DNA of 64,000 nucleotides, from NCBI GenBank assembly GCA_913062815.1, contig CAJXWZ010000003.1, positions 103,919 to 167,918 of the forward strand, given 5' to 3'. The notes beneath the pieces were generated by a model. The model was not told the origin of the DNA. It worked only from the letters and a program-made list of their open reading frames with translations, and did no database searches. Origin of the DNA: an uncultured Colwellia sp. GTDB taxonomy: Bacteria; Pseudomonadota; Gammaproteobacteria; Enterobacterales; Alteromonadaceae. The number at the start of each line of letters is the position of its first letter. Position 1 is the stretch's first letter. The position numbers and the translations under genes are program-made. Positions 48,767 to 63,732 of this stretch are shown in pieces.

Positions 48767-49159
48767 ATGAGAGCATCAATAAAGAAATATAGAAATGCCA
48801 ATGCTGACAACGTAGCTGATGCAGATCCTCATCAACTAATTAGCATTATTTTTAAACATATTTTAGCAAATATTGCTATAGCAAGCGGTGCTATTACAAG
48901 AAATGAAATAGAAAATAAAGGTAAATGCTTAACGAAAGCAATAGCATTAGTTGGTGAGCTACAAGATAGTTTAGATATGGAGCAAGGTGGTGAAATTTCG
49001 TCAAGCTTATTTGATTTATATGACTATGTTGTTCGTTGTCTGGTGCAGGCAAACTTAGAGAATGACTGTGAAAAATTAGACGAAGTTAAAGGTCTTATCA
49101 CTGAGGTGAAAGAAGGTTGGGATGCTATTCCTGCAGAAAAGAGAGCTAAACCTGCCTAG
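48767..49159 (+). CDS. fliS: Flagellin chaperone FliS
   Basis: Binds the C-terminal region of flagellin to keep it unfolded for export. The 130-residue, mostly helical protein begins MRASIKKYRNANADNVADAD, followed by PHQLISIIFKHILANI, a FliS signature, and ISSSLFDLYDYVVRCL. The ATG at 48767 was chosen; a TTG at 48728 lies at the predicted transcription start, so it has no leader. It is the first of three plus-strand genes ending in the protease-bearing flagellin. No fliD or flaG is adjacent, unlike the usual fliD-fliS order. Confidence 0.88.
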   Translation: MRASIKKYRNANADNVADADPHQLISIIFKHILANIAIASGAITRNEIENKGKCLTKAIALVGELQDSLDMEQGGEISSSLFDLYDYVVRCLVQANLENDCEKLDEVKGLITEVKEGWDAIPAEKRAKPA

Positions 49160-49211: not shown

Positions 49212-49511
49212 ATGAACAATATTGAACGTGATATAGACTTTATTATAATAAAAACACAACAGCTTTTTAGCATTATAGAGCAAAAAAAATATCCTTTACT
49301 TGAAACTAAAGAACTGATTAGACAGCAACTCATTGAACAATTCTTTTTAGACTATACCGAAGATGAAATTGTCGTCGTTAGCGAAAAATTACAACAATTA
49401 GTAGAACTTTCCACAAAAGTGACCGAACAGTGTGAAAGTATTTTTGCACAAACTAAACAAGATATTCTCAAAGTAAAACAAGTAGATAAAATTAAAAAAG
49501 CCTATAAATAA
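49212..49511 (+). CDS. Small helical protein, FliT-like
   Basis: A 99-residue, mainly helical protein with lysine-, glutamate- and glutamine-rich heptads. It has no membrane segment. Size, position just after fliS and the long helix pattern resemble FliT (also called FlaI), the chaperone of the cap protein FliD and a FlhDC regulator in enterics, but sequence similarity is not clear to me. It may share a transcript with fliS (52-base gap), while the flagellin gene after it has its own promoter. Confidence 0.55.
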   Translation: MNNIERDIDFIIIKTQQLFSIIEQKKYPLLETKELIRQQLIEQFFLDYTEDEIVVVSEKLQQLVELSTKVTEQCESIFAQTKQDILKVKQVDKIKKAYK

Positions 49512-49574: not shown

Positions 49575-49601
49575 TAAAGACTTCTTAGTTTATGCCGATA
49601 T
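49575..49601 (+). promoter_or_regulatory. Sigma-28 (FliA) promoter of the flagellinolysin gene
   Basis: TAAAG at 49575-49579 and GCCGATAT at 49594-49601 match TAAAGTTT-N11-GCCGATAA with exact spacing. Transcription would start near 49608. This leaves a 26-base leader before the ATG at 49635 and almost none before the ATG at 49617. Confidence 0.88.
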
Positions 49602-49634
49602 AAACACATTGGATTCATGGACTCGATTACTTTT

Positions 49635-51389
49635 ATGGCATTATCGGTAAATACAAATATTGGCAGCTTATTTGGGCAGCGTATGCTAAACAAAGCGACT
49701 AATCATCAAAGTGTTGCCATGGAGCGGTTAAGCTCCGGTTTGCGAATTAATAGTGCTCGAGATGACGCTGCAGGGCTTTCTATTTCCAACGGTTTTACCT
49801 CTCAAATTAGAGGAACAAATCAAGCGATAAGAAATATTAATGATGGTATTTCGGCTATTCAAACCAGTGATGGCGTTCTTGGCTCAGTTGTTAATAACTT
49901 ACAGAGAATCAGAGAGTTATCTGTTCAAGCTGCCAATAGTACTAATTCTGCGTCAGATAAAAAAGCTATTGCTGCTGAAGTTGATGTATTAATTAAAGAA
50001 ATAGACTTTGTGACTTCTACTACTGCATTTAATGGTAAAAATTTATTTGAACGCGGAGATTTACCTGCATGGGTTGATGAAGAACGCCAATTTAATGTAG
50101 ACCAAATGTTTGGTAATTGGTTAGCAGAGTCTGAGCGCATGATTGAAAGCGCCTATGGATTAAAGGCTGATGGCAAAGAAAATCTTAGTATTGTTTTTGA
50201 TGACGACCCTAACAGCGAGTTTGCAGCAACTGTTAGCTATAATGCAGCAAATGATGATAGTTTAAGCAGAGCAACACAACAAACTCTCACTCTATTTACC
50301 AAAGCGTTCCCAATAGGAAAGGCACCTGATGGAGGTTCTACACCTAATTTTAGTGATAGAACCATTGCTCATGAAATGGTGCATGCTGTTATGGGGCGTA
50401 CTATGGATATGGACTCATTAGAAACTTGGTTTAAAGAAGGTGCGGCTGAACTTATTCATGGCGCAGATGAGAATGTGCTTAACCAATTAATCGCCGAAGA
50501 TGACACTACCAGCCATTTTAGTGCTGTCGACAGAAACAACTATGCCACTGATAATACCTTTTTTAGTGCTTGGGATAGTACAGGTAAACATTACTCACAG
50601 GGTTACGTTGCCGTGAGGTTTTTGCACGATGACATTGTTGCTAATGGTGGCGATGGTCTTAAAGATGTAATGAGTTTTTTAAGTGATGAAGATAACCTTG
50701 CAGGTGGATTAACTTCACTTAACGATGCGTTAGCCCAACTCAATACCGATGGCTTAACATCCTATGCAACAGATGCGGCATTTAAAATAGCCTTTACTGC
50801 AGGAGCAGATAATTACATTCAAACGTTAAATTTATCTAATGAAGATACCGGTGCTATAGGTGGCTTGGACGTTGATGGTGGCGTAGAAAAAACGGCTGAG
50901 TCAGTGGTTGATAATAGTAATATATTTTTATCAACGGATCCTTTAGAAGGCTATAATAATGTCACGGTTGATAGCTCTGGCGTAGTAAATCCTTTACTCG
51001 CTAATTTATATAACATGAAAGTTGGCTCAGAAAGCGACCATAATCTTGAGCTAAGCTTTTTTAGAGTTGATTCAAATGTGCTTGGACTGAATCAACTTGA
51101 TATTGAAACAGATGCAACAGGTGCTATTAACCTTGTTGACAGAGCTCTAGGTTATATATCTGACCAAAGAGCAAACTTAGGTGCCATTGCTAATCGCTTA
51201 GCGAGTACCATTACCGTTAATGAAAGTGTTAGCCAACTTGCAAGTATTAGCCGCTCGCGAATTACTGATGCCGACTTTGCTGCTGAAACCTCTCAATTAA
51301 GTAAACAACAAATTCTACAGCAATCTTCTAGTGCTATGATTTCTCAAGCCAATAGTAGTATCTCGAGTGTATTGAGTCTACTTTCATAA
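49635..51389 (+). CDS. Flagellinolysin: flagellin with inserted zinc metalloprotease domain
   Basis: A flagellin whose exposed domain is replaced by a peptidase. From the ATG at 49635 the protein has 584 residues. Residues 1-140 are the flagellin N-terminal D0/D1 domain (LSSGLRINSARDDAAGLSIS; QAIRNINDGISAIQTSDG) and residues about 461-584 are the C-terminal D1/D0 part. The 300 or so residues between carry HEMVH at 246-250 and WFKEGAAE, whose E268 is the likely third zinc ligand, as in gluzincins and M9-like collagenases. E247 would be the catalytic base. The family is described as flagellinolysin; proteolytic filaments were shown in Clostridium haemolyticum. Activity here is inferred. The gene has its own FliA promoter. 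Confidence 0.93.
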   Translation: MALSVNTNIGSLFGQRMLNKATNHQSVAMERLSSGLRINSARDDAAGLSISNGFTSQIRGTNQAIRNINDGISAIQTSDGVLGSVVNNLQRIRELSVQAANSTNSASDKKAIAAEVDVLIKEIDFVTSTTAFNGKNLFERGDLPAWVDEERQFNVDQMFGNWLAESERMIESAYGLKADGKENLSIVFDDDPNSEFAATVSYNAANDDSLSRATQQTLTLFTKAFPIGKAPDGGSTPNFSDRTIAHEMVHAVMGRTMDMDSLETWFKEGAAELIHGADENVLNQLIAEDDTTSHFSAVDRNNYATDNTFFSAWDSTGKHYSQGYVAVRFLHDDIVANGGDGLKDVMSFLSDEDNLAGGLTSLNDALAQLNTDGLTSYATDAAFKIAFTAGADNYIQTLNLSNEDTGAIGGLDVDGGVEKTAESVVDNSNIFLSTDPLEGYNNVTVDSSGVVNPLLANLYNMKVGSESDHNLELSFFRVDSNVLGLNQLDIETDATGAINLVDRALGYISDQRANLGAIANRLASTITVNESVSQLASISRSRITDADFAAETSQLSKQQILQQSSSAMISQANSSISSVLSLLS

Positions 51390-51518: not shown

Positions 51519-52493
51519 ATGAAACCTATTATATTTGTGTGCGGACACAGAAAAGGCGGTACATCCATGTTCCACAATTTATTTGATGGTCATAATGATG
51601 TTAGCGTTTACCCTGTCGATTTAAATATTCTTTATGGCTATTTTCCGCAATTTACTCAAAACTCTTATTCTGTTGAGCAATTAAAAGAAAGACTCAATCG
51701 AGTTATATTTGAAGATCTCCAAACTATCCCAGCCCTTCAGGGGAAAGTAAACTTTCGAGCTTTTAAATCACTGTTTTATGAAAAAGTAAGTCAACACAAT
51801 TTAAATGATATCGACTTGGTGATGACTAGCCTACTTGAGAGTTACTCAGAAACGCACACAAAAAACAATTACTTTAAATATCATTTATTTAAAGAGACAA
51901 GTATTGAGTTATACGCTCAAGAGCTGGCCGAAAAATTTCCAAATGGAAAGTTTCTTCATTTAATTAGAGATCCCCGAGATAACTTTGCATCAATTAGTTC
52001 AGGTTTAGATACTAAATATCAAGGATATGGGGACTCTAAAAACTCCTTAATGTTTAGCATGATAAACAGGGCCTTATACGGATTTAAGATGGCGGCAATA
52101 AACAAGCAACTCCTTGGCGAAAATCGTTACAAAGTTGTACGTTTTGAAGATTTAGCTTCAAATCCAAAAAGTGTCATGACTGATGTATGCCAATGGCTAG
52201 AGATTCCATATCAAGACTGCCTAACAATACCTTCAATTTTTGGAGAGGTAAATCAAGGTAACAATTTTGAAGATATTAAGTTTAATAATGTTAGTAGTGA
52301 GAATGTTGGTAGATGGCGTGAAAGAATTAGCACTGCTGATGCTGCTCTTATTGAGCTAATGTTTAAAGAGGAAATGTTAACTTTTGACTATCAGTTACAG
52401 AGCAGCGATGCTGAAAAAGCAAATAGTATAGGTGAGTTTTACAAATGGATGAATTATAAATATTTATATCACGACAGATTTACTAGCGAGTAA
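51519..52493 (+). CDS. Sulfotransferase family protein
   Basis: A 324-residue PAPS-dependent sulfotransferase. The N-terminal P-loop reads VCGHRKGGTSMF and binds the 5'-phosphosulfate. The second motif, FLHLIRDPRDNFASISSG, is the 3'-phosphate-binding region. The acceptor is unknown. AAAGGA precedes the start by about six bases. It lies between the flagellin and the pseudaminate-type genes, so sulfation of a flagellin glycan or surface polysaccharide is a fair guess but unproven. The 129 bases upstream hold no clear promoter or terminator. Confidence 0.85.
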   Translation: MKPIIFVCGHRKGGTSMFHNLFDGHNDVSVYPVDLNILYGYFPQFTQNSYSVEQLKERLNRVIFEDLQTIPALQGKVNFRAFKSLFYEKVSQHNLNDIDLVMTSLLESYSETHTKNNYFKYHLFKETSIELYAQELAEKFPNGKFLHLIRDPRDNFASISSGLDTKYQGYGDSKNSLMFSMINRALYGFKMAAINKQLLGENRYKVVRFEDLASNPKSVMTDVCQWLEIPYQDCLTIPSIFGEVNQGNNFEDIKFNNVSSENVGRWRERISTADAALIELMFKEEMLTFDYQLQSSDAEKANSIGEFYKWMNYKYLYHDRFTSE

Positions 52494-52500
52494 GTGCATA

Positions 52501-53796
52501 ATGAAATCGAATAAAAATGCTATCGACATGATGGAAGTGCTACAAAAAATAGCGCCATTAAACAGGACACTTGCTAGTAAAGAAACAGATCAAGCCTTAA
52601 AGGTTGTCCAAGAATATTTACCTGGCTCAACAATTAAAGGCTTTACTTGTGGCTCTAAAGTATGGACTTGGCAAATACCTATGCGCTGGGAAGTGACCAA
52701 AGCAACAATAATTGCTGACGGTAAAGTTCTAGTTGATTTTGATTGGCACGTTTTACATTTAGTAAACTACTCACAATCATTTTCTGGCACTATATCAAAG
52801 GAAGAGCTACTAGAACATTTACACTCTGATCCGAAGCACCCTGAGCAAATTCCATTTGTTTTTAGCTTTTACGAGCCTAAATGGGGATTTTGCATTCCAC
52901 ACTCATGGATGGAAAAGTTTACTTACGATAGCTACGATATAGAGATTGAAACTGAATTTGAACAAGGTGATATGAATGTTTTAGAGTACTTTTTACCTGG
53001 AGAATCACAAGAGACCATTATTTTTTGCAACGACATTTGCCACCCATCGCAAGCAAACGACTCATTAACAGGCCTTGTCGCTGCAATGAATATAATGTCT
53101 GAACTAAAAAAAAGAACGAAACGTAAGTATTCTTACCTATTTTTAGCTGTACCTGAAACTATTGGTAGTATAGCCTACTTAGCAAACAACCCCGATGTAA
53201 TAAAGAATGGTATATATGGTATTGTTTGCGAGATGCTAGGCACAGATGGGCCTTTAGTTGGTCAACAAAGCAGAAGTAATGATTATCTAAATTTCATTAT
53301 GCAGCAAGTTTTAAACGAATCAGGCTTAATTTACTCTACAGTACCCTTTTTAAAAAGTGTTGGTAATGACGAGAAATCATTAGATGTTCAAGGGGTTGAT
53401 ATACCAACTATTTCTATTACTCGCTATCCTTATAAAGAATATCATTCAAGTGCAGATAACATAGACTTAATCTGCTCTAAAAAACTTAATGAAGCAAAAG
53501 ATATAATTTTAGGCGTTGTTGATTATTTAGAAAAAGATTATTGCATACAAATGAATCATCCTGGGCCTGTTTTTCTATCAGGCTATGACCTATACCCTGA
53601 CTGGCGCAGTGACCCCAAGCTAGAGCAGTACTGGTTATCTTTCATTGATGTTATGTATGGCATCAATGACAAACAATCAATTATCGAGCTGGCACTATTG
53701 AATGAAATTCCTATAGAGAATTTTTTTTACTGGACAGATGCTTTTTGTCTCAAGAACTTAGCAAGCCAAAAACCGCATGTCATAAATAAAAAATAA
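52501..53796 (+). CDS. DUF4910-type putative zinc hydrolase / aminopeptidase-like protein
   Basis: A 431-residue protein with the M28-like fold of the DUF4910/DUF2172 group. Candidate metal ligands are H181 and D187 (CHPSQANDS), E219 (PETIGS) and H315 (YHSSADN). A C-terminal winged-helix-like tail of about 100 residues follows. Relatives often occur in surface-glycan loci, and their substrate is unknown; peptidase or amidohydrolase activity on a sugar amide are both possible. It starts seven bases after the sulfotransferase stop, so the two are probably co-expressed. Confidence 0.72.
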   Translation: MKSNKNAIDMMEVLQKIAPLNRTLASKETDQALKVVQEYLPGSTIKGFTCGSKVWTWQIPMRWEVTKATIIADGKVLVDFDWHVLHLVNYSQSFSGTISKEELLEHLHSDPKHPEQIPFVFSFYEPKWGFCIPHSWMEKFTYDSYDIEIETEFEQGDMNVLEYFLPGESQETIIFCNDICHPSQANDSLTGLVAAMNIMSELKKRTKRKYSYLFLAVPETIGSIAYLANNPDVIKNGIYGIVCEMLGTDGPLVGQQSRSNDYLNFIMQQVLNESGLIYSTVPFLKSVGNDEKSLDVQGVDIPTISITRYPYKEYHSSADNIDLICSKKLNEAKDIILGVVDYLEKDYCIQMNHPGPVFLSGYDLYPDWRSDPKLEQYWLSFIDVMYGINDKQSIIELALLNEIPIENFFYWTDAFCLKNLASQKPHVINKK

Positions 53797-53832: not shown

Positions 53833-54939
<1,107 letters not shown>

Positions 54940-54945
54940 GCCTCA

Positions 54946-56109
54946 ATGAGTTCAAAAATGATCCCCTACGGTAAACAAGATATTAGCCAACAAGATATTG
55001 ATACTGTAATACAAGTATTAAAATCTGATTGGTTAACTCAAGGCCCACAAGTTCCATTATTTGAACAGACTTTGGCTACAAAGTGCTCTGTGGGATATGG
55101 TATTGCAGTGAACAGCGCTACTTCTGCATTGCATATCGCTAACCTCGCTTTAGGCGTTGGTAAAAATGATGTTGTTTGGACAAGTCCAATAACATTTGTA
55201 GCAACAGCAAACAGTGCTCTGTATTGTGGTGCCAATGTTGATTTTGTTGATATTGATTTGAACTCTGGCAATATGTCAGTAAAAGCTTTACAAGAAAAGC
55301 TGCTCTGGGCAAAGCAACATAATTGTTTACCTAAAGTGGTTATTCCTGTTCACTTAGCGGGCCAGTCATGTGATATGGAAGCAATCTATGCTCTTTCAAA
55401 AGAGTATGATTTCTCACTCATTGAAGATGCCTCTCATGCTGTAGGAGGTGAATATCAAGGAATGTCGGTGGGCTGCTGTCAATATAGTGACATTACAATA
55501 TTTAGTTTTCATCCAGTAAAAATAATAACCTCCGCAGAAGGTGGTATGGCATTAACCAATGATGCTGAACTTGCTAAAAGGATGAAACTTTTTCGTAGTC
55601 ATGGTATTACTTCAAATAACAATGAAATGACAGAGCCAAGCCATGGTCCTTGGTATTACCAACAAATTTCGCTTGGCTTTAATTATAGAATGACAGACCT
55701 TCAAGCTGCCTTGGGATTATCGCAGTTGTCACGAATTGATGAATTTGTCGATAAGCGTAATGCATTAGCTAAAGTCTATGATGTGGCTTTTTCAGGCTCA
55801 AGTATCAGAGTGTTATCCCCAGTAGAGAATCGAATTTCAGCCTACCATTTATATTTAATTTTATTACCTGATGTAAATAAAGAAAAGCACAAACAAGCCA
55901 TTGTTACTTTAAGAGAACAAGGTATTTGCGCCCATGTGCACTATATTCCTGTGCATTTACAACCTTATTATCAGCAACTTGGTTTTAAGGCTGGAGATTA
56001 TCCCATTGCTGAGCAATATTACCAACGGGTTATATCATTACCTTTATTCCCTAAACTAACCTTAAAAGAACAGTTATACATTATTGAACAAGTGAAAAAC
56101 TTAATATGA
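54946..56109 (+). CDS. pseC: UDP-4-amino-4,6-dideoxy-L-altrose aminotransferase, PseC
   Basis: Transfers an amino group to C4 of the PseB product. The 387-residue PLP enzyme of the DegT/DnrJ/EryC1 family has IPYGKQDISQQDIDTVIQVL at the start, VNSATSALHIANLALGVG, EDASHAVGGEYQG and the PLP lysine K192 in SFHPVKIITSAEGG. Its C-terminal part (HYIPVHLQPYYQ) is typical of the family. Its stop overlaps the next start by four bases (ATGA). Confidence 0.93.
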   Translation: MSSKMIPYGKQDISQQDIDTVIQVLKSDWLTQGPQVPLFEQTLATKCSVGYGIAVNSATSALHIANLALGVGKNDVVWTSPITFVATANSALYCGANVDFVDIDLNSGNMSVKALQEKLLWAKQHNCLPKVVIPVHLAGQSCDMEAIYALSKEYDFSLIEDASHAVGGEYQGMSVGCCQYSDITIFSFHPVKIITSAEGGMALTNDAELAKRMKLFRSHGITSNNNEMTEPSHGPWYYQQISLGFNYRMTDLQAALGLSQLSRIDEFVDKRNALAKVYDVAFSGSSIRVLSPVENRISAYHLYLILLPDVNKEKHKQAIVTLREQGICAHVHYIPVHLQPYYQQLGFKAGDYPIAEQYYQRVISLPLFPKLTLKEQLYIIEQVKNLI

Positions 56110-56966
56110 GGCTTGCACTTGGCACAGCACAGTTTGGTTTAGACTATGGTGTAAGCAATACTCAGGGACAGGTACACCCAGATGAAGTAAAAGAAATTTT
56201 AACTTTTGCAAAACATCAAGGTATCAGTTTACTTGATACTGCTCCGGCATATGGTGGCAGTGAACAGGTCTTAGGCCAAAGTTGTATCACAAGTCAATTC
56301 GAAATTATTAGTAAAATACCAGCTTTAGAAAATGCTAATGCCAACATTGAACAATATGTAAAGACCAGCCTTGAAAAATTAAAGCAAAAGAAGCTCGCTG
56401 GTATTTTATTTCATCATGTTGAAGATGTTATGTCTCTTTCTGAAGGAAGAAAGCGCTTCAAAGCTTTAACAGACATGAAGTTAAGCGGTAAAATAGATAA
56501 AGTAGGCATATCTGTTTATACGCCAAAACAGCTGGATTTTTGTCTTAAAAACCACCCTGTAGACATTGTTCAATTACCACTAAACTGCTTAGATCAACGT
56601 TTTATAAGTACCGGACAACTAGATGAATTAGCAGAGAGAAACATTGAAGTTCATTGTCGCTCTATTTTCTTACAAGGTTTGTTATTAATGGACTTTAAAC
56701 ACCTGCCTGCTTACTTTGAGCCTTTTAAGCATTACTTTAAACATTTTTTAGATACTGCTGAGCAATTAAAAGTGTCCACCTTAAGTTTAGCATTAGCGCT
56801 TGGTTGCCAACAAAGTAGTATTAGTTCAATTGTTGTTGGTTGCTGCAGTGTAAATCAATTATCAGAAATAATTACAGCCTACAAACTAGCAGCGAATATT
56901 GATGAAGATTTATCTTCCCTCGCTTGTGAAGATGTAAAATTACTCATTCCTAGCAATTGGCCTTAA
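56106..56966 (+). CDS. Aldo/keto reductase family protein
   Basis: A 286-residue oxidoreductase of the aldo/keto reductase fold, NAD(P)H-dependent. The start LALGTAQFGLDYGVSN is the family pattern. The catalytic tetrad is represented by D and Y in LLDTAPAYGGSE, the lysine in ISKIPAL and the histidine in LFHHVEDVM. It is not one of the six Pse enzymes. It may build or alter a side chain of the nonulosonate, for example together with the class-III aminotransferase. It overlaps pseC by four bases. Confidence 0.85.
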   Translation: MRLALGTAQFGLDYGVSNTQGQVHPDEVKEILTFAKHQGISLLDTAPAYGGSEQVLGQSCITSQFEIISKIPALENANANIEQYVKTSLEKLKQKKLAGILFHHVEDVMSLSEGRKRFKALTDMKLSGKIDKVGISVYTPKQLDFCLKNHPVDIVQLPLNCLDQRFISTGQLDELAERNIEVHCRSIFLQGLLLMDFKHLPAYFEPFKHYFKHFLDTAEQLKVSTLSLALALGCQQSSISSIVVGCCSVNQLSEIITAYKLAANIDEDLSSLACEDVKLLIPSNWP

Positions 56967-56978
56967 GGAAGTTAACTT

Positions 56979-57542
56979 ATGAATAAATCACTACTTGATG
57001 ATAAGAGTTTTTTAGAGAATGATAATATTTATCTTAGGAATGTTAGCTTAGACGATGTTAACGACAGTTATTATCAATGGTTAAATGACCCACAAGTTAA
57101 TCAGTTTTTAGAAACACGGTTTGTTGTACAATCAAAAACTAAAATTGCGGAGTTTGTTACCAGTAAAGATGGTAACTCTGACGAAATATTATTAGCTATT
57201 TGTGATAAAAAGCATGACTTACATATTGGTAATATAAAGCTTGGCCCCATCAATTGGTACCATCGCCGTGCAGAGATAAGCTTGTTAATTGGCAATAAAT
57301 CCTATTGGGGTAAAGGAATTGCGACCCAAGCTATCGAGCTAATTAGTCAGTTTGCCTTTCAAACCTTGAACTTGAATAAAATAATGGCTGGTGCCTATAA
57401 AAATAACACTGGTAGCATTAAAGCTTTTCAAAAGTGTGGTTATAAAATTGAAGGTGAAGTCGAAGATTATGTTTTAGTGAATAACCTTGGTGTTGCATTA
57501 GTTAAACTTGGCATCACCGCTAAGCAATTTTCACAGCGTTAA
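56979..57542 (+). CDS. GNAT acetyltransferase (RimJ/RimL-like), candidate PseH
   Basis: A 187-residue N-acetyltransferase with IYLRNVSLDDVNDSYYQWLN at the start, LLIGNKSYWGKGIATQAIEL (acetyl-CoA-binding loop) and NNTGSIKAFQKCGYKIEGE. PseH normally acetylates the 4-amino group of the PseC product. A second GNAT domain is fused to PseG downstream, so either could play this role and the other may act on a further amino group. The start has AAGGAAG upstream. Confidence 0.83.
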   Translation: MNKSLLDDKSFLENDNIYLRNVSLDDVNDSYYQWLNDPQVNQFLETRFVVQSKTKIAEFVTSKDGNSDEILLAICDKKHDLHIGNIKLGPINWYHRRAEISLLIGNKSYWGKGIATQAIELISQFAFQTLNLNKIMAGAYKNNTGSIKAFQKCGYKIEGEVEDYVLVNNLGVALVKLGITAKQFSQR

Positions 57543-57558
57543 AAAGTGAATTATAATC

Positions 57559-58326
57559 ATGAGCATTAATGTCATATTACAAGCAAGATTTTCATCCTCT
57601 CGTCTTCCAGGGAAGGTATTAAAAAAAATTGTTAACAAGCCTATGTTAGCACTTCAGATAGAACGGATAAAAGAAGCGAAACTAATTGATAAGATCATTG
57701 TCGCTACAAGCGTTAATAAGGATGATGATGCTATTGAGGAATTATGTAGAAAGTTATCTATTTCTTGTTATAGAGGTAGCTTAGATGATGTATTAGATCG
57801 TTATTGGCAAACAAGTAAACAATTTCCTAGTCGGCACATAGTGCGTCTTACCGGTGATTGCCCATTAATTGAACCTTGCATAATTGATCAAGTCATTACT
57901 TTGCACCTTGCACAAAAAGCGGATTACACTAGCAATTGCTTTACACCTTGTCTACCTGATGGACTCGATGTTGAAATATTAACTAAAGCCGCTTTAGGAA
58001 AAAGTTGGCAACAAGCTGAAAAGCCCTCTGAACGAGAACATGTGACACAATACATCCTTAATAATGAAGAGTTATTTAATTTTGCAAATTATCAGCACAC
58101 ACCAGACTTATCTATGCATAGATGGACGGTTGATGAGCCTGAAGACTTTGAGTTAATCGATAAAATTTATCAACATTTTTACCCAAACACCTCACACTTT
58201 ACCATGGAAGACATACTTGATTTGCTTACAAAACAGCCTACATTGAACGATATAAACAAAAAATTTAACCGTAATCAAGGTTTAGCAACTTCCAAAGTAT
58301 TAGATAGGGAACAAGGCTATGACTAA
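57559..58326 (+). CDS. SpsF-like cytidylyltransferase, candidate for nonulosonate activation
   Basis: A 255-residue nucleotidyltransferase of the SpsF type, with the signature VILQARFSSSRLPGKVL at the N-terminus, IIVATSVNKDDDAIE, YRGSLDDVLDRYW and 'RLTGDCPLIEP'. This is the place where PseF, the CMP-pseudaminate synthetase, is expected, but a PseF/NeuA-type sequence (IPARGGSKRIP) is absent. It may therefore make the CMP-sugar, or another nucleotide sugar. It overlaps the next gene by eight bases. Confidence 0.82.
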   Translation: MSINVILQARFSSSRLPGKVLKKIVNKPMLALQIERIKEAKLIDKIIVATSVNKDDDAIEELCRKLSISCYRGSLDDVLDRYWQTSKQFPSRHIVRLTGDCPLIEPCIIDQVITLHLAQKADYTSNCFTPCLPDGLDVEILTKAALGKSWQQAEKPSEREHVTQYILNNEELFNFANYQHTPDLSMHRWTVDEPEDFELIDKIYQHFYPNTSHFTMEDILDLLTKQPTLNDINKKFNRNQGLATSKVLDREQGYD

Positions 58327-59602
58327 ATACTTCAGTCAATCAGAACATTTACTTGAGCGAGCCGAACAAAGTATTCCGTTAGGTTCACAAACATTTAGTA
58401 AATCTAAAACTGCCTATCCTTTTGGAGTTTCACCATTTTTTATTGAACGTGGCAAAGGTTGCCAAGTATGGGATGTTGATGATAACCAATACACTGATTT
58501 TGTCAGTGGTTTATTATCAGTTTCACTAGGGTATTGTGATGCGGATGTTGATGCCGCGGTAATAGAGCAATTAAAATCTGGCGTCACTTTTTCACTGCCT
58601 CATAAATTAGAGATGGAAGTTGCTGAAATGATCATTGATATGGTGCCATGTGCCGAAATGATTCGTTTTGGTAAAAACGGCAGTGATGCAACTTCTGCGG
58701 CAATTCGTTTAGCTAGGGCTTTTACACAAAATGAGCATATAGCAGTTTGCGGATATCATGGTTGGCAAGATTGGTATATTGGTTCTACTACTCGTGATTT
58801 AGGAGTGCCTGTAGCAACTAAAGCGCTGACTCACAGTTTTCATTACAACGATATAGCATCATTAAAAAACATATTAAGCCAGAATAAATTTGCAGCCATT
58901 ATTATGGAGCCGATGAATGTGGCTTACCCAGAAAATAACTTTTTACAGGAAGTTAAAAGTCTCTGTCATCAACATGGTGCATTACTGATTTTTGATGAAA
59001 TGATCACAGGCTTTCGCTTCGCTCAAGGAGGCGCACAAGCGTTATTTGGAGTTACACCAGATTTAGCTACTTTTGGTAAAGGTATGGCTAATGGTTACCC
59101 CATTTCTGCAGTCGTTGGTCGTAAAGATATAATGATGCTAATGGAAGACATTTTCTTTTCAGGAACTTTTGCCGGAGAAACCTTGTCACTTGCGGCAACA
59201 AAAGCTGTATTAACTAAAATTAACACTAACGATGTGCTACCTCATATTCATAATATAGGCAAACAGCTAATGAAAGGCCTACAACAATTACTTGCTGATA
59301 TGGGTAACCCTACTTGGCTTAAACTTTGCGGTCACCCTAGTTGGTCTTTCCTACAGATTTTAGACTGCACGCATTATTCTAGTTGGCAATTAAAGTCGTT
59401 ATTTTTACAAGAAATGGCGCAAAAAGGCTTTTTGCTCGGCGGCGGTCATAACCTCAATTATGCCCATCAATTTAAAGATATTGAAGATTTACTAATCGCT
59501 TATAATGAAGTACTGCCTTTAATTGCTGAAACTATTAAGCAACGAAATTTTGATGACATTTTTCACGGTAAGGTACTAAAACCTTTATTTAAGGTCCGCT
59601 AA
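58319..59602 (+). CDS. Class-III aminotransferase (glutamate-1-semialdehyde aminomutase-like)
   Basis: A 427-residue PLP enzyme similar in fold to HemL. The PLP lysine is K254 in TFGKGMANGYPISAVVGR, and the cofactor-binding aspartate lies in LLIFDEMITGFRF. RFGKNGSDATSAAIRLAR binds the phosphate. HemL itself is a single housekeeping gene normally found elsewhere, so this copy is likely a sugar or side-chain aminotransferase of the glycan pathway. Its substrate cannot be read from sequence. It overlaps the SpsF-like gene by eight bases. Confidence 0.85.
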   Translation: MTKYFSQSEHLLERAEQSIPLGSQTFSKSKTAYPFGVSPFFIERGKGCQVWDVDDNQYTDFVSGLLSVSLGYCDADVDAAVIEQLKSGVTFSLPHKLEMEVAEMIIDMVPCAEMIRFGKNGSDATSAAIRLARAFTQNEHIAVCGYHGWQDWYIGSTTRDLGVPVATKALTHSFHYNDIASLKNILSQNKFAAIIMEPMNVAYPENNFLQEVKSLCHQHGALLIFDEMITGFRFAQGGAQALFGVTPDLATFGKGMANGYPISAVVGRKDIMMLMEDIFFSGTFAGETLSLAATKAVLTKINTNDVLPHIHNIGKQLMKGLQQLLADMGNPTWLKLCGHPSWSFLQILDCTHYSSWQLKSLFLQEMAQKGFLLGGGHNLNYAHQFKDIEDLLIAYNEVLPLIAETIKQRNFDDIFHGKVLKPLFKVR

Positions 59603-59604
59603 TA

Positions 59605-61260
59605 ATGACTAAGGCTCAAAAAGTGCCAGCTGAAAATAGCACTTGGAAGGCAACAGTAGCTATTCGAGTTGATGCGTCTACTCGAATGGGCTCAGGTCAT
59701 GTTATGCGCTGCTTAACTTTAGCAAGCAAATTAATATCTCAAAATCTAAGAATCATTTTTTTAACCAAGAATCATCAAGGAAATTTAAATCACCTCATTG
59801 AACAACAAGGTTTTGAATTAATAAAACTATCGGCGCCAGTAGAAAGTATAGAGGCACAAATAGATGATAAATTATGGTTAGGTTGCAGTTATCAAGCCGA
59901 TGCCCAAGAATGCTTGCATGCTCTTACAGGCCTTAACATTCATTTGCTAATTATTGACCACTACAGCTTAGATCATCAATGGCAGGCTATTCTTAAAGAC
60001 AAACTCAATAGTGATTTGAACAAACAGTACTCTACTAAATTTATGGTCATTGATGATCTAGCCAACCGTAAGCATCATTGTGATATTTTATTAGATCAAA
60101 CTTTAGGCCGTATCCCCCAAGACTATAAAGAGTTAACTCCTCATCATTGTCAGCTTCTATTAGGTAACGAATTCATTATGCTTCGTGATGAGTTCGAAGG
60201 TAGCCGGATGAAAGCAGAATCAATAAGAGAAAAAACATCAGAAATAAAAAACATACTCATCACTATGGGAGGTACTGATCCAGATAATATTGCTGAAAGT
60301 GTATTAAATTGGTTGATTAAGTTTCAGAAACTTAATTCAAACATTCAAATTACTTTAGTTGCGAATAAAACTTCCACTTTCTTTGACAAGTTAAAATTGA
60401 TCGCTTGTAACCATAAGTGGATCAGCATAGTAAGCAATCCACAGTCAATGGCAAATTTAATGCTAAAGGCAGAAGTAGCTATAGGTTCTTCAGGAGCTAC
60501 TGCGTGGGAGCGTTGTTGTTTAGGTTTACCTTGCATATCGATTATTAGTGCAGATAATCAGCAGTTCTTAAGTGAAAAACTTTCTAATGCTGGCGCTATT
60601 ATTAGTCTTGGTCACTTCTCAACAATAAACTATACAAGCTTTATAAAAGCTATTACACAAATATTAATTGAAAAAGACACTTATACAAATATGGTAAAAA
60701 ACTGCTTTGCTTGTTGTGATGGTCTTGGGGTAAATAAAGTTATTACTGCAATTTTAGACAATATTTCAAATGATACATCACTTATTGAAGCCAATTATGA
60801 TGATTGCCAAGTGCTATTTGATTGGCAATCAAATATCAAGATTAGAAAATACTTTAACAATCCTAAACCCGTTGAATGGAAAAAACATTGTCAATGGCTG
60901 AGCTGCACATTAGATGACGCAGATAAATATTTGTATATGATTAAACTAAACAATCCTTTTAACGAAACAGCTAAACCTATAGGTATGCTTAGATTAGATT
61001 TAATCAAACATTCTCAATGTAAAATAGATGCAAAATGGGAAATTTCGATCATCATAGATCCTGACTATCAAGGAAAAAAAATAGCAGCTAAAGCAATAAG
61101 TAAAATTCCATACTCTTTTTTAGAACGAGGTATTATTGCGCAAGTACATAACAACAATATTGCTTCTCATAAGTTATTTTTACGTGCAGGCTTTAAGCAA
61201 ATATCAGAAACAGTCTATTGTATAAAATTGGATGCGAACTTAGGAGTTAACAATGGCTAA
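59605..61260 (+). CDS. pseG: PseG UDP-sugar hydrolase fused to a GNAT domain
   Basis: The N-terminal part (about 15-385) resembles PseG, which removes UDP from the diacetamido sugar before condensation. It has IRVDASTRMGSGHVMRCL, DDLANRKHHCDILLDQTLG, ITMGGTDPDN and GSSGATAWERCCLGLP. The C-terminal part (about 395-545) is a GNAT domain with EISIIIDPDYQGKKIAAKAI and NNIASHKLFLRAGF, resembling PseH. The fusion would couple hydrolysis and acetylation. The 551-residue length is far above the 280 or so of a lone PseG. It overlaps the next gene by eight bases. Confidence 0.88.
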   Translation: MTKAQKVPAENSTWKATVAIRVDASTRMGSGHVMRCLTLASKLISQNLRIIFLTKNHQGNLNHLIEQQGFELIKLSAPVESIEAQIDDKLWLGCSYQADAQECLHALTGLNIHLLIIDHYSLDHQWQAILKDKLNSDLNKQYSTKFMVIDDLANRKHHCDILLDQTLGRIPQDYKELTPHHCQLLLGNEFIMLRDEFEGSRMKAESIREKTSEIKNILITMGGTDPDNIAESVLNWLIKFQKLNSNIQITLVANKTSTFFDKLKLIACNHKWISIVSNPQSMANLMLKAEVAIGSSGATAWERCCLGLPCISIISADNQQFLSEKLSNAGAIISLGHFSTINYTSFIKAITQILIEKDTYTNMVKNCFACCDGLGVNKVITAILDNISNDTSLIEANYDDCQVLFDWQSNIKIRKYFNNPKPVEWKKHCQWLSCTLDDADKYLYMIKLNNPFNETAKPIGMLRLDLIKHSQCKIDAKWEISIIIDPDYQGKKIAAKAISKIPYSFLERGIIAQVHNNNIASHKLFLRAGFKQISETVYCIKLDANLGVNNG

Positions 61261-61975
61261 CTATATTGTCGCGACTATTCACCCATGGAATATTGAAGCT
61301 TTCGAAATTTACAGTAAAAAACTGAGGGGCAACTGGCATATAATTACCAACAAAGACGACTTTACTAATGAAGTTATCAGTCGTATTAATCCTGACTATA
61401 TTTTTTTTCCTCATTGGAGTTGGCCAGTGCCTAGTAGCATATTCAACAATTGGTCTTGCGTTTGTTTCCATATGACTGATGTTCCATTCGGTCGAGGTGG
61501 AAGTCCACTTCAAAATTTAATTATGCGGGGAGTGACGAAAACCAAAGTGTCAGCCCTACAAATGATAAAAGAGTTAGATGCTGGGCCTGTGTATTTAAAG
61601 TACCCTATGGACCTTACTGGTACAGCAGAAAGTATTTTCAAAGTACTATCCATGACAGTGGCCGATATGATTGAAGAGATTGTTAATACTACCCCTAAAC
61701 CAATCGAACAATCAGGTGACCTTGTTTACTTTGAAAGAAGAACGCCTGAGCAAAGTTTAATACCGAGTAACTTAGCTCCCGCTGAGCTATATGATTTCAT
61801 CCGTATGCTTGACGCACCTAGTTACCCCAAAGCTTTCATAACGCATGGCAATGGCAAGCTTGAATTTTCTGAAGCCACATTAGAAAATGGCTCTCTAACT
61901 GCTAAAGTAACCTTTAATGAATTGAATATTCAAATAGATAATAACTCTCATAGCCAAAAAATGGATAAGAGCTAA
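61253..61975 (+). CDS. Formyltransferase-like protein of nonulosonate loci
   Basis: A 240-residue protein with the formyltransferase fold, probably acting on a sugar amine with N10-formyl-tetrahydrofolate. The core FHMTDVPFGRGGSPLQNLI keeps the active histidine and the GxxP-like turn, and MIKELDAGPVYLK keeps the aspartate. The usual N-x-H asparagine is a cysteine here (CFH). It is too divergent and lacks the tRNA-binding domain to be the housekeeping methionyl-tRNA formyltransferase. GGAG lies seven bases before the ATG, inside the end of the previous gene. Confidence 0.8.
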   Translation: MANYIVATIHPWNIEAFEIYSKKLRGNWHIITNKDDFTNEVISRINPDYIFFPHWSWPVPSSIFNNWSCVCFHMTDVPFGRGGSPLQNLIMRGVTKTKVSALQMIKELDAGPVYLKYPMDLTGTAESIFKVLSMTVADMIEEIVNTTPKPIEQSGDLVYFERRTPEQSLIPSNLAPAELYDFIRMLDAPSYPKAFITHGNGKLEFSEATLENGSLTAKVTFNELNIQIDNNSHSQKMDKS

Positions 61976-61979
61976 TAAT

Positions 61980-63044
61980 ATGATAGATAAATTTGCTACT
62001 GAAATTACTATAGACGGCACTAAAATTGGCGCAGATAGTCCCCCTTACATTATTGCTGAGCTATCTGCGAATCATAACGGCTCTTTAGATCGCGCAATAG
62101 CTACTATAGATATGGCTAAAGCCATGGGAGCAGATGCGATAAAATTGCAAACATATAGTGCCGACACCATGACTATCGATTGTGATAACGAACACTTTCA
62201 AATACATGGTGGTTTATGGGATGGTTTCAATTTATACAAGTTATATCAATGGGCGCAAACGCCATTTTCATGGCACAAAGCCATGTTTGAGCATGCTAGA
62301 AAAATAGGTATCACGGTATTTAGTACGCCATTTGATGAAACTGCAGTAGACTTATTAGAGTCTCTTGATTGCCCTGCCTATAAAATAGCTTCTTTTGAGG
62401 CAACAGATTTAGCACTTATTGAGAAAGTGGCTAAAACTGGAAAACCCTTAATCATTTCAACGGGCATGGCAAATGAAGAAGAAATTAACGATCTTGTAGA
62501 AACAGCAAAAAATGCCGGCTGTACCAATTTAGTTTTATTACACTGCATTAGCTCTTACCCCGCGCCGGTTGATCAAAGTAATTTACATACTATTAGCGAT
62601 ATTGCGCAACGCTGGCAAGTTATTCCAGGCCTTTCTGATCATACCCTAGGTACCAGTGTTGCAATAACTGCTGTTGCATTAGGTGCTTGTGTAATCGAAA
62701 AGCATGTCACTCTTAGTAGAGATGATAAGGGGCCTGATAGTGAGTTTTCATTAGAGCCGAATGAGTTAGAGCAACTTGTTGAACAAAGTAAATTAGCATG
62801 GAAATCACTTGGCAGAGCAAGTTATGAAAGAAAACCCGCAGAGTTAGCGAACTTGAAGTTTAGGCGTTCATTGTTTTTTGTAAAAGATATAGCTAAAGGC
62901 ACTAAAATAACGAATGAACATGTTAGAAAGATAAGACCGAGCTCTGGTTTGGCACCTAAATTTTATAACGATGTTATAGGCTGTACCGTAAAGTGTGATA
63001 TTAGTCTAGGTACACCTGTATCGTGGGAGCTATTAAATGAATAA
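61980..63044 (+). CDS. pseI: Pseudaminic acid synthase PseI
   Basis: Condenses the 6-deoxy-diacetamido sugar with phosphoenolpyruvate to form pseudaminic acid. The 354-residue NeuB-family protein has an N-terminal TIM barrel (ELSANHNGSLDRAIATID, GADAIKLQTYSADTMTI, GLSDHTLGTSVAITAVALG, EKHVTLSRDDKGPDSEFSL) and a C-terminal SAF domain (FFVKDIAKGTKITNEHVRKI). The HGGLWDG segment is close to Campylobacter PseI rather than NeuB or LegI. It ends eight bases inside the PIG-L gene. Confidence 0.93.
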   Translation: MIDKFATEITIDGTKIGADSPPYIIAELSANHNGSLDRAIATIDMAKAMGADAIKLQTYSADTMTIDCDNEHFQIHGGLWDGFNLYKLYQWAQTPFSWHKAMFEHARKIGITVFSTPFDETAVDLLESLDCPAYKIASFEATDLALIEKVAKTGKPLIISTGMANEEEINDLVETAKNAGCTNLVLLHCISSYPAPVDQSNLHTISDIAQRWQVIPGLSDHTLGTSVAITAVALGACVIEKHVTLSRDDKGPDSEFSLEPNELEQLVEQSKLAWKSLGRASYERKPAELANLKFRRSLFFVKDIAKGTKITNEHVRKIRPSSGLAPKFYNDVIGCTVKCDISLGTPVSWELLNE

Positions 63045-63732
63045 AAGTAAAACGTCTTTCTCAAATAAAAAAATACTTGTTATCGTTGCTCATGCTGATG
63101 ATGAAGCCATAGGCTGTGGCGGTACCTTATTAAAGCATAACGACAATGGTGACGATATACGCATTATTTATATGACTGATGGTGTTGGTGCAAGAGGCGA
63201 TAATAATGAAGCGAGTAAAATTAGACTATCTGCTCAACAAGAGGCGTGTAAGCAACTTAACACAAGTAAATATTACAACTTCAATTTTCCAGACAATCGT
63301 ATGGATCAAGTTCCATTAATTGATGTAACACAAACAATAGAAAAAATCGCTAGTGAATATCAGCCTGATATTATCTACACCCATCACGGTGGCGATCTTA
63401 ATGTTGATCACCGAATCGTTCATCAAGCAGTTTTAACTGCGTGTAGACCTCAACCAAATTCATCCATAGAAAAAATATTGTCCTTTGAAGTGAACTCAAG
63501 TACCGAGTGGGCTTCAAGCAGTATGAGCTCGACATTTATACCAAACTACTTTGTTGATATGACTAACTATCAAAGCGATAAACAACATTTACTTGAAAAG
63601 TATCAAGAAGAAATGAAACCCTACCCGCATACTCGCTCATTTGAAGCTATTAGCTATTTGAACAAAGTACGAGGTAGCTCTGTTGGCGTCGAATCAGCAG
63701 AAGCTTTTATGCTGATACGTGCAATATGGTAG
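63037..63732 (+). CDS. PIG-L (LmbE-like) deacetylase
   Basis: A 231-residue zinc-dependent N-deacetylase with the signature VAHADDEAIGCGGTLLKH (AHxDDE) and a second HxxH-like motif, YTHHGGDLNVDHRIVHQAV. Family members remove acetyl groups from N-acetylglucosamine-type substrates. In this operon it could free an amino group on pseudaminic acid or a precursor for later formylation. It overlaps pseI by eight bases and is the last gene of the plus-strand run. Confidence 0.88.
   Translation: MNKSKTSFSNKKILVIVAHADDEAIGCGGTLLKHNDNGDDIRIIYMTDGVGARGDNNEASKIRLSAQQEACKQLNTSKYYNFNFPDNRMDQVPLIDVTQTIEKIASEYQPDIIYTHHGGDLNVDHRIVHQAVLTACRPQPNSSIEKILSFEVNSSTEWASSSMSSTFIPNYFVDMTNYQSDKQHLLEKYQEEMKPYPHTRSFEAISYLNKVRGSSVGVESAEAFMLIRAIW

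Follow-up and report, generated by a model that had tools for sequence, protein, structure and literature searches.

Flagellinolysins, or proteolytic flagellins, have been known as a class since 2017, with the marine Pseudoalteromonas tunicata among the organisms included (PMC7643111, PMC12153261). Filaments of C. haemolyticum are proven to be proteolytic, and the flagellinolysin of this organism was found in the filaments themselves, at up to about 10% of filament flagellin and 1000 to 2000 sites (PMC5595980). For H. gracilis, the hypervariable region of the flagellin is a proven protease that is Ca/Zn-dependent and blocked by EDTA (PMC7643111). Cleavage of type I collagen by flagellinolysin could not be demonstrated, and the ancestral protease was called undetermined, with a collagenase-related gene being suggested (PMC5595980).

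Here, we describe a gene that, on the grounds of its sequence, is a further member of this class described in 2017. It is contained in a 64-kb stretch of DNA (hereafter, the window) taken from a 219-kb contig of a 5.15-Mb genome.

Domain architecture and predicted active site

The gene and its surroundings are summarized in Table 1. The start codon at 49635 is common to close relatives, whose proteins begin with MALSVNTN or MSLSVNTN (the longest open reading frame [ORF] begins at 49617), and the stop codon ends at 51389. The N- and C-terminal cores of flagellin are both present (PF00669 and PF00700, each above its cutoff), and the sequence between them matches Peptidase_M9 (PF01752) at residues 238 to 331 with an E value of 2.9e-7 and 30.5 bits (cutoff, 26), a partial match that covers model positions 156 to 252 of 289. 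Against the NCBIfam equivalog NF033876 (“flagellinolysin”), the protein scores well above the cutoff of 205 bits. An ordinary flagellin lacking an enzyme domain is excluded by the peptidase that both Pfam and NF033876 recognize in the hypervariable region. The protease domain occurs as a single copy in its own genome (E up to 0.01). When the whole protein was searched against PDB sequences, each of the best 60 of 83 matches was to a flagellin or another flagellar entry; a search with only the protease part found nothing up to an E value of 10.

Table 1. Features of the flagellinolysin locus (positions are those of the window)
Feature	Position	Strand	Basis
fliS, flagellin export chaperone	48767..49159	+	TIGR00208, 97.4 bits (cutoff, 53.75)
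fliT-like chaperone (weak match)	49212..49511	+	PF05400, E 0.0047, 18.1 bits, below cutoff of 29.5
Sigma-28 (FliA)-type promoter, putative, TAAAG-N14-GCCGATAT	49575..49601	+	Sole strict-pattern match in the window
Flagellinolysin (proteolytic flagellin), 584 aa	49635..51389	+	NF033876, 326.9 bits; Pfam Flagellin_N, Flagellin_C, Peptidase_M9
N-terminal D0/D1 (Flagellin_N), residues 5-139	49647..50051	+	Pfam, E 3.7e-38
Metallopeptidase domain in hypervariable region, residues about 155-428	50097..50918	+	hmmsearch envelope, profile of relatives
HEMVH zinc/catalytic motif, residues 246-250	50370..50384	+	Sequence; HExxH in 47/47 domains, own and phage copies included
WFKEGAAE, residues 265-272 (inferred third zinc ligand Glu268, “basement” Ala271)	50427..50450	+	Same in 43/43 nonphage domains
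DTGAIGGLDVDGG signature downstream of active site, partly common to phage-tail copies	50844..50882	+	
C-terminal D1/D0 (Flagellin_C), residues 499-583	51129..51383	+	Pfam, E 2.9e-17
Sulfotransferase	51519-52493	+	
DUF4910/DUF2172 M28-like protein	52501-53796	+	
Pseudaminic-acid-type glycan operon: pseB, pseC, AKR, GNAT, pseF, aminotransferase, pseG, formyltransferase, pseI, PIG-L	53938..63732	+	

An earlier note on this DNA had proposed a flagellin of the flagellinolysin family with complete D0/D1 ends and an intact gluzincin-type protease domain, in which HEMVH is followed downstream by WFKEGAAE. This description is borne out in each of its parts: the Pfam architecture includes both ends of the flagellin, the curated equivalog cutoff is passed, and the set of motifs is complete, at the residues given in Table 1. 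Seven positions (His246, Glu247, His250, Glu268, Gly269, Ala271, and Glu272) are identical in all 43 nonphage domains, own included, a level of conservation that, across the aligned domains, is far beyond chance. In the C. haemolyticum enzyme, Glu262 is followed three residues on by Ala265 (PMC5595980); because the same spacing recurs here, Glu268 is the predicted third ligand and Ala271 the predicted basement residue, and we infer both roles, as well as the geometry of the zinc site, from the motifs and their spacing.

The protease domain is under purifying selection comparable to that on the flagellin core, with dN/dS ratios of 0.04 to 0.07, which are rough in that synonymous sites are near saturation. 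Between the window protein and its relatives L038 and L039 (87 to 88% identical), the ratios are 0.043 and 0.045 for the protease domain and 0.039 and 0.046 for the N-terminal core; between L038 and L039, they are 0.068 and 0.053, respectively (the C-terminal core gave no computable ratio). These values, together with the catalytic residues kept in all 43 nonphage domains, argue against a structural-only outer domain, i.e., a decayed or noncatalytic metallopeptidase fold acting as a spacer or adhesin. Such a role would be in line with the flagellin functions observed in nature before the 2017 work, which were structural and adhesive only (PMC5595980), but we consider it very improbable for this protein.

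Distribution and conserved genomic location

The NF033876 cutoff is passed in 13 of 99 genomes searched around the window genome, 11 of which, counting the window genome itself, are among the 39 of the same genus. In evenly drawn samples, again counting the window genome, it is passed in 7 of 369 genomes of the class and 6 of 398 of the phylum (one further genome, G419, is in both samples, and two of the six from the phylum are the fragment L095 and the free-standing copy, both described below). Within the family, a protein search (E up to 1e-10) matched 32 of 395 genomes, and two of these matches (G967 and G909), for which there is no locus, were left out of further comparison. Among named records that carry the gene, the nearest are Colwellia MAGs, at 87 to 88% identity, which fits the earlier guess of a marine gammaproteobacterium. 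Since 11 of the 39 genomes searched in the genus have the gene, presence/absence pairs are available for probing the role of proteolytic flagella.

Two lineages can be distinguished by sequence and location. Lineage A consists of the window gene, L038 (= G006), L039 (= G030), L044, L043/L130, L041/L129, and L040/L131, and occupies a place between fliS-fliT and the pseB-pseC operon. The order fliS-fliT-flagellinolysin-pse is found in L039, L044, and L043/L130, and L038 agrees with it except that no fliT was called. The gene of L041/L129 occupies this place in the opposite orientation and has two fliS-like genes beside it. In L040/L131, the contig begins just upstream, such that the fliS side is outside the view, and pseB is separated from the gene by a 701-aa ORF. 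Lineage B (L046 to L050, L053, L054, and the split copy L020), whose seven unsplit members are 33 to 36% identical to the window protein, is situated before a 94- to 100-aa ORF and fliS; flrA flanks it on the opposite side, except in L020, where the contig is too short.

Same-genus fliS loci that are free of flagellinolysin provide the complementary view: 11 of 13 have fliS beside flrA with only a 94- to 110-aa ORF between them, and a close pseB-pseC pair then follows in 4 of those 11 (L138, L140, L141, and L144). Because the order of fliS and flrA (plus pseB-pseC) is kept in these loci, the gene has been either gained by or lost from a neighborhood that already existed. The earlier note had placed the gene directly between flagellar regulators and a glycan operon; the neighborhood is as described, but the position is not peculiar to this genome, being conserved in the lineage.

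Three of the copies (L020, L043/L130, and L040/L131) are split by in-frame stops or a frame change, which suggests either loss in some strains or assembly error; as split copies exist in relatives, flagellinolysin does not appear to be indispensable. Several further copies depart from the common pattern. L045 has no flagellar labels around it. L091:520-3798 encodes a 1092-aa flagellin that has the same protease domain plus a large amount of extra outer-domain sequence and that, at 203.8 bits, falls just under the 205-bit cutoff of NF033876, such that annotation by this model would miss it. L095 is a truncated flagellinolysin-type ORF between two ORFs that read as transposase-like, and it was perhaps disrupted by insertion sequences.

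The window locus, its putative promoter, and the accompanying flagellins

Apart from the chaperone genes, the surroundings of the window gene include flrA, named by reading of its ORF, on the minus strand nearby. Within the glycan operon, pseI is the sole gene backed by a passed model (TIGR03586, 506.1 bits versus a cutoff of 340.25), and the remaining names are those that we presume from reading of the sequences. Among the lineage-A loci read, the window is alone in having the sulfotransferase and DUF4910/DUF2172 genes between flagellinolysin and pseB; a part for this pair in flagellar glycan modification is possible.

The putative sigma-28-type box ends 33 bases before the flagellinolysin start codon. 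The strict pattern (TAAAG-N13-15-GCCGATAW), derived from what we take to be the sigma-28 consensus, matches once in the window and in none of 100 shuffles, and a looser pattern matches seven times over both strands of the window. The looser pattern is present upstream of four of the six lineage-A genes examined (window, L038, L039, and L043); it was not met upstream of L041 and L044, where a variant differing by one or two bases can be made out by eye. The strict pattern is absent from the 19.9-kb stretch with the ordinary flagellins, which may use another variant, and coregulation of the two kinds of flagellin is putative.

Five proteins of the genome match Flagellin_N: flagellinolysin, two ordinary flagellins, flgL, and one odd flagellin elsewhere. 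The ordinary flagellins (658 and 666 aa) are encoded beside flaG and fliD in the main cluster. With two such separate genes close to flaG and fliD, the filament does not have to rely on flagellinolysin, which is therefore probably a minor, protease-bearing subunit. The odd flagellin-like gene (L007:9566-11566, 666 aa) is on another contig, has an unusual C terminus, and has no other flagellar gene nearby that could be recognized by eye.

Separate histories of the two lineages are favored

The relationships among the protease domains were examined in a tree of 47 of the 48 distinct domains (P0004, with a matched stretch of <200 aa, was left out, and Firmicutes flagellinolysins are absent). In this tree, which is unrooted and does not fix the direction of transfer, and which has long branches (F_L091 and others), lineage A and one free-standing protein form a supported group (96/88), and lineage B falls inside another group of 23 rows (100/99). 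A second tree, based on the core ends, contains 58 of 69 proteins (the other 11 were lost because the motif required by the script was missing), with ordinary flagellins chosen by motif from 20 loci, a selection that is incomplete and from which the L007 flagellin is absent. Here, the five lineage-A rows form one group (100/99) whose neighbors are the window genome's two ordinary flagellins (97/83). Lineage B groups with other flagellinolysins, and the A side also takes in a few flagellinolysins from other families of the class. A constraint that places the core ends of all flagellinolysins in a single clade is weakly rejected (p-AU = 0.027, for a group named post hoc and in the presence of long branches). 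As such, we favor separate histories for lineages A and B, in which the protease would have been inserted independently into two flagellin backgrounds.

Relatives of the protease domain outside flagellin

In another genus of the family, L126:9108-10286 is a 392-aa ORF that has the protease domain but is without flagellin ends. Over 296 residues, it shares 53% identity with the window protein, and it scores 238.7 bits with NF033876, above the cutoff, and there is no flagellar label among its neighbors. A truncated assembly artifact is an unlikely explanation for this form, given that the ORF runs from ATG to stop inside a 389-kb contig. L126 branches inside lineage A, and a topology that keeps it out of this lineage is rejected (p-AU = 0.003, for a group defined post hoc), such that the protease of the window's lineage has probably left flagellin in this case. 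The free-standing form is rare: it is found in 1 of 59 genomes of the genus.

The existence of this free-standing derivative inside lineage A bears on whether the window protein could, once exported via the flagellar apparatus, work chiefly as a protease that is secreted or shed and not as part of the filament, a view also raised in the Discussion of PMC7643111. Against it, the D0 and D1 regions are complete at both ends of the window protein, its N-terminal core is under purifying selection like that on the protease, and the flagellinolysin of C. haemolyticum was in filaments (PMC5595980). We therefore judge a mainly secreted protease to be unlikely, if less so than a structural-only domain, and retain the reading of a filament subunit.

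More distant relatives are encoded on plasmids. Matches occur in 10 of 72,556 plasmid records, the same 10 being recovered with the L126 protein and with the Bacillus domain as the query, and all are from Firmicutes: Bacillus velezensis (3), Limosilactobacillus (3), Vagococcus (3), and Ligilactobacillus (1). The feature is annotated as flagellin in five records, as hypothetical in four, and as a DUF5048 protein in one. We read five of the ten (L134:3768-5846, L135:3732-5828, L152:2741-4840, L153:2726-4837, and L154:2717-4879), and in all five the peptidase makes up the C-terminal ~280 residues of a roughly 700-aa protein that matches phrog_1887, “tail protein” (E of 5.7e-40 or better), and whose gene is the third (four records) or fourth (one record) after the phage tape-measure gene. 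DUF5048 is above its cutoff in both of the proteins scanned against Pfam, and terminase, holin, and integrase genes in the larger stretches of two records mark them as phage-plasmids. Three of the five tail proteins read are annotated as “flagellin,” apparently wrongly.

With the window domain, the Bacillus copy shares 33% identity over 281 aligned positions (E = 8e-28), and it carries the HExxH, WFKEGAAELIHGADE, and DTG-IGG signatures; HExxH and EGxAE are kept in all five tail copies read, and a profile-profile comparison gives a probability of 99.9% (E = 6e-38). In the protease tree, four phage copies form one group (100/100), with an unusual letter makeup in three of the four. The NF033876 scores of the five tail domains are 191.3, 127.6, 107.5, 102.7, and 109.6 bits; all are below the 205-bit cutoff, and these copies are thus relatives of the peptidase and not flagellinolysins. 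Among the matches listed in the 99-genome search, ORFs matching the peptidase columns alone reached at best 43.9 bits.

A tblastn search of a phage collection of 50,697 records gave no match with either the window domain or the phage-plasmid domain, which argues against a frequent occurrence of the tail form among sequenced phages. No relative of the window domain was found in viral contigs; with the phage-plasmid domain, three loci were returned, one of which (L149) is a near-identical Bacillus-type copy. The other two (L150 and L151) were rejected as chance matches, with 91 residues at 28% identity, and the 286-aa ORF at this place in L150 lacks HExxH.

Proposed role

The reading that we prefer, at a probability of roughly 0.85, is that the window gene encodes a minor, coassembled, surface-displayed zinc protease among ordinary flagellins. 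We infer its expression, export, assembly, activity, and benefit as follows. The gene would be transcribed as a late-class flagellin from its own sigma-28-type promoter, and the protein would be exported via the flagellar channel and then coassembled with ordinary flagellins as a minor subunit. The D0/D1 ends of the protein would form part of the filament core, whereas the zinc gluzincin domain (probably calcium-supported) would project from the surface and cleave peptides and proteins touching the filament. The likely benefit would be nutritional or surface-related, with proteins of particles, biofilms, or foreign flagella as candidate substrates. The earlier expectation of a filament with thousands of active sites marks the upper end of what this arrangement would give, considering the two ordinary flagellins present here and the up to about 10% and 1000 to 2000 sites of C. 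haemolyticum (PMC5595980). The window gene also offers a clean marine example of the class, for which the locus is conserved, a sigma-28-type promoter box is present, and purifying selection was measured.

A broader reading, to which we give slightly less than even odds, treats the peptidase as a portable “displayed protease” cassette that is passed between extracellular protein assemblies, being placed in the outer domain of flagellins, at the C terminus of a tail protein encoded by Firmicutes phage-plasmids, and in an independent protein derived from the window's lineage. If so, the tail copy would breach a proteinaceous surface layer, or flagella, as the phage adsorbs, and phage tails would be a candidate source, sink, or shuttle for the domain. 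The presence of an active-looking module on phage tails bears on the origin of enzymatic flagella, and the job suggested to be common to flagella and phage tails is the cutting of proteins on a neighboring surface.

Comparison with known systems

The word “phage” is absent from the main texts of PMC5595980, PMC7643111, and PMC6529551, and a literature search, with supplements, preprints, and most subscription papers outside its scope, found no report of a link between flagellinolysins and phages. As far as the available text of PMC5595980 and PMC7643111 goes, the peptidase on phage tails and the free form in one relative extend beyond what is described there.

Three known systems can be set beside the window protein. 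The tail proteins (phrog_1887, DUF5048) are like it in their peptidase domain but unlike it in having no flagellin ends and in being fusions to a tail protein. Peptidase M9, the family of clostridial-type collagenases, is similar in that PF01752 is above its cutoff at the residues given above. M9 collagenases possess activator and collagen-recruitment domains; these were not found in the window protein, for which Pfam (E up to 0.1) recognizes only the flagellin ends besides the partial match to M9 and a subthreshold one to M1. The closest system comprises the flagellinolysin/FlaMP proteins (NF033876; C. haemolyticum FliA(H), H. gracilis HgrFlaMP, and P. tunicata PtuFlaMP), with which the window protein shares the flagellin ends and a gluzincin insert with HExxH plus the distal Glu and Ala. 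The differences from these proteins lie in phylogenetic placement and context: the window protein belongs to its own supported group in the protease tree (a tree without FliA(H), HgrFlaMP, and PtuFlaMP), and its gene is situated between fliT and a pseudaminic-acid operon, whereas that of H. gracilis is among nonflagellar genes (PMC7643111).
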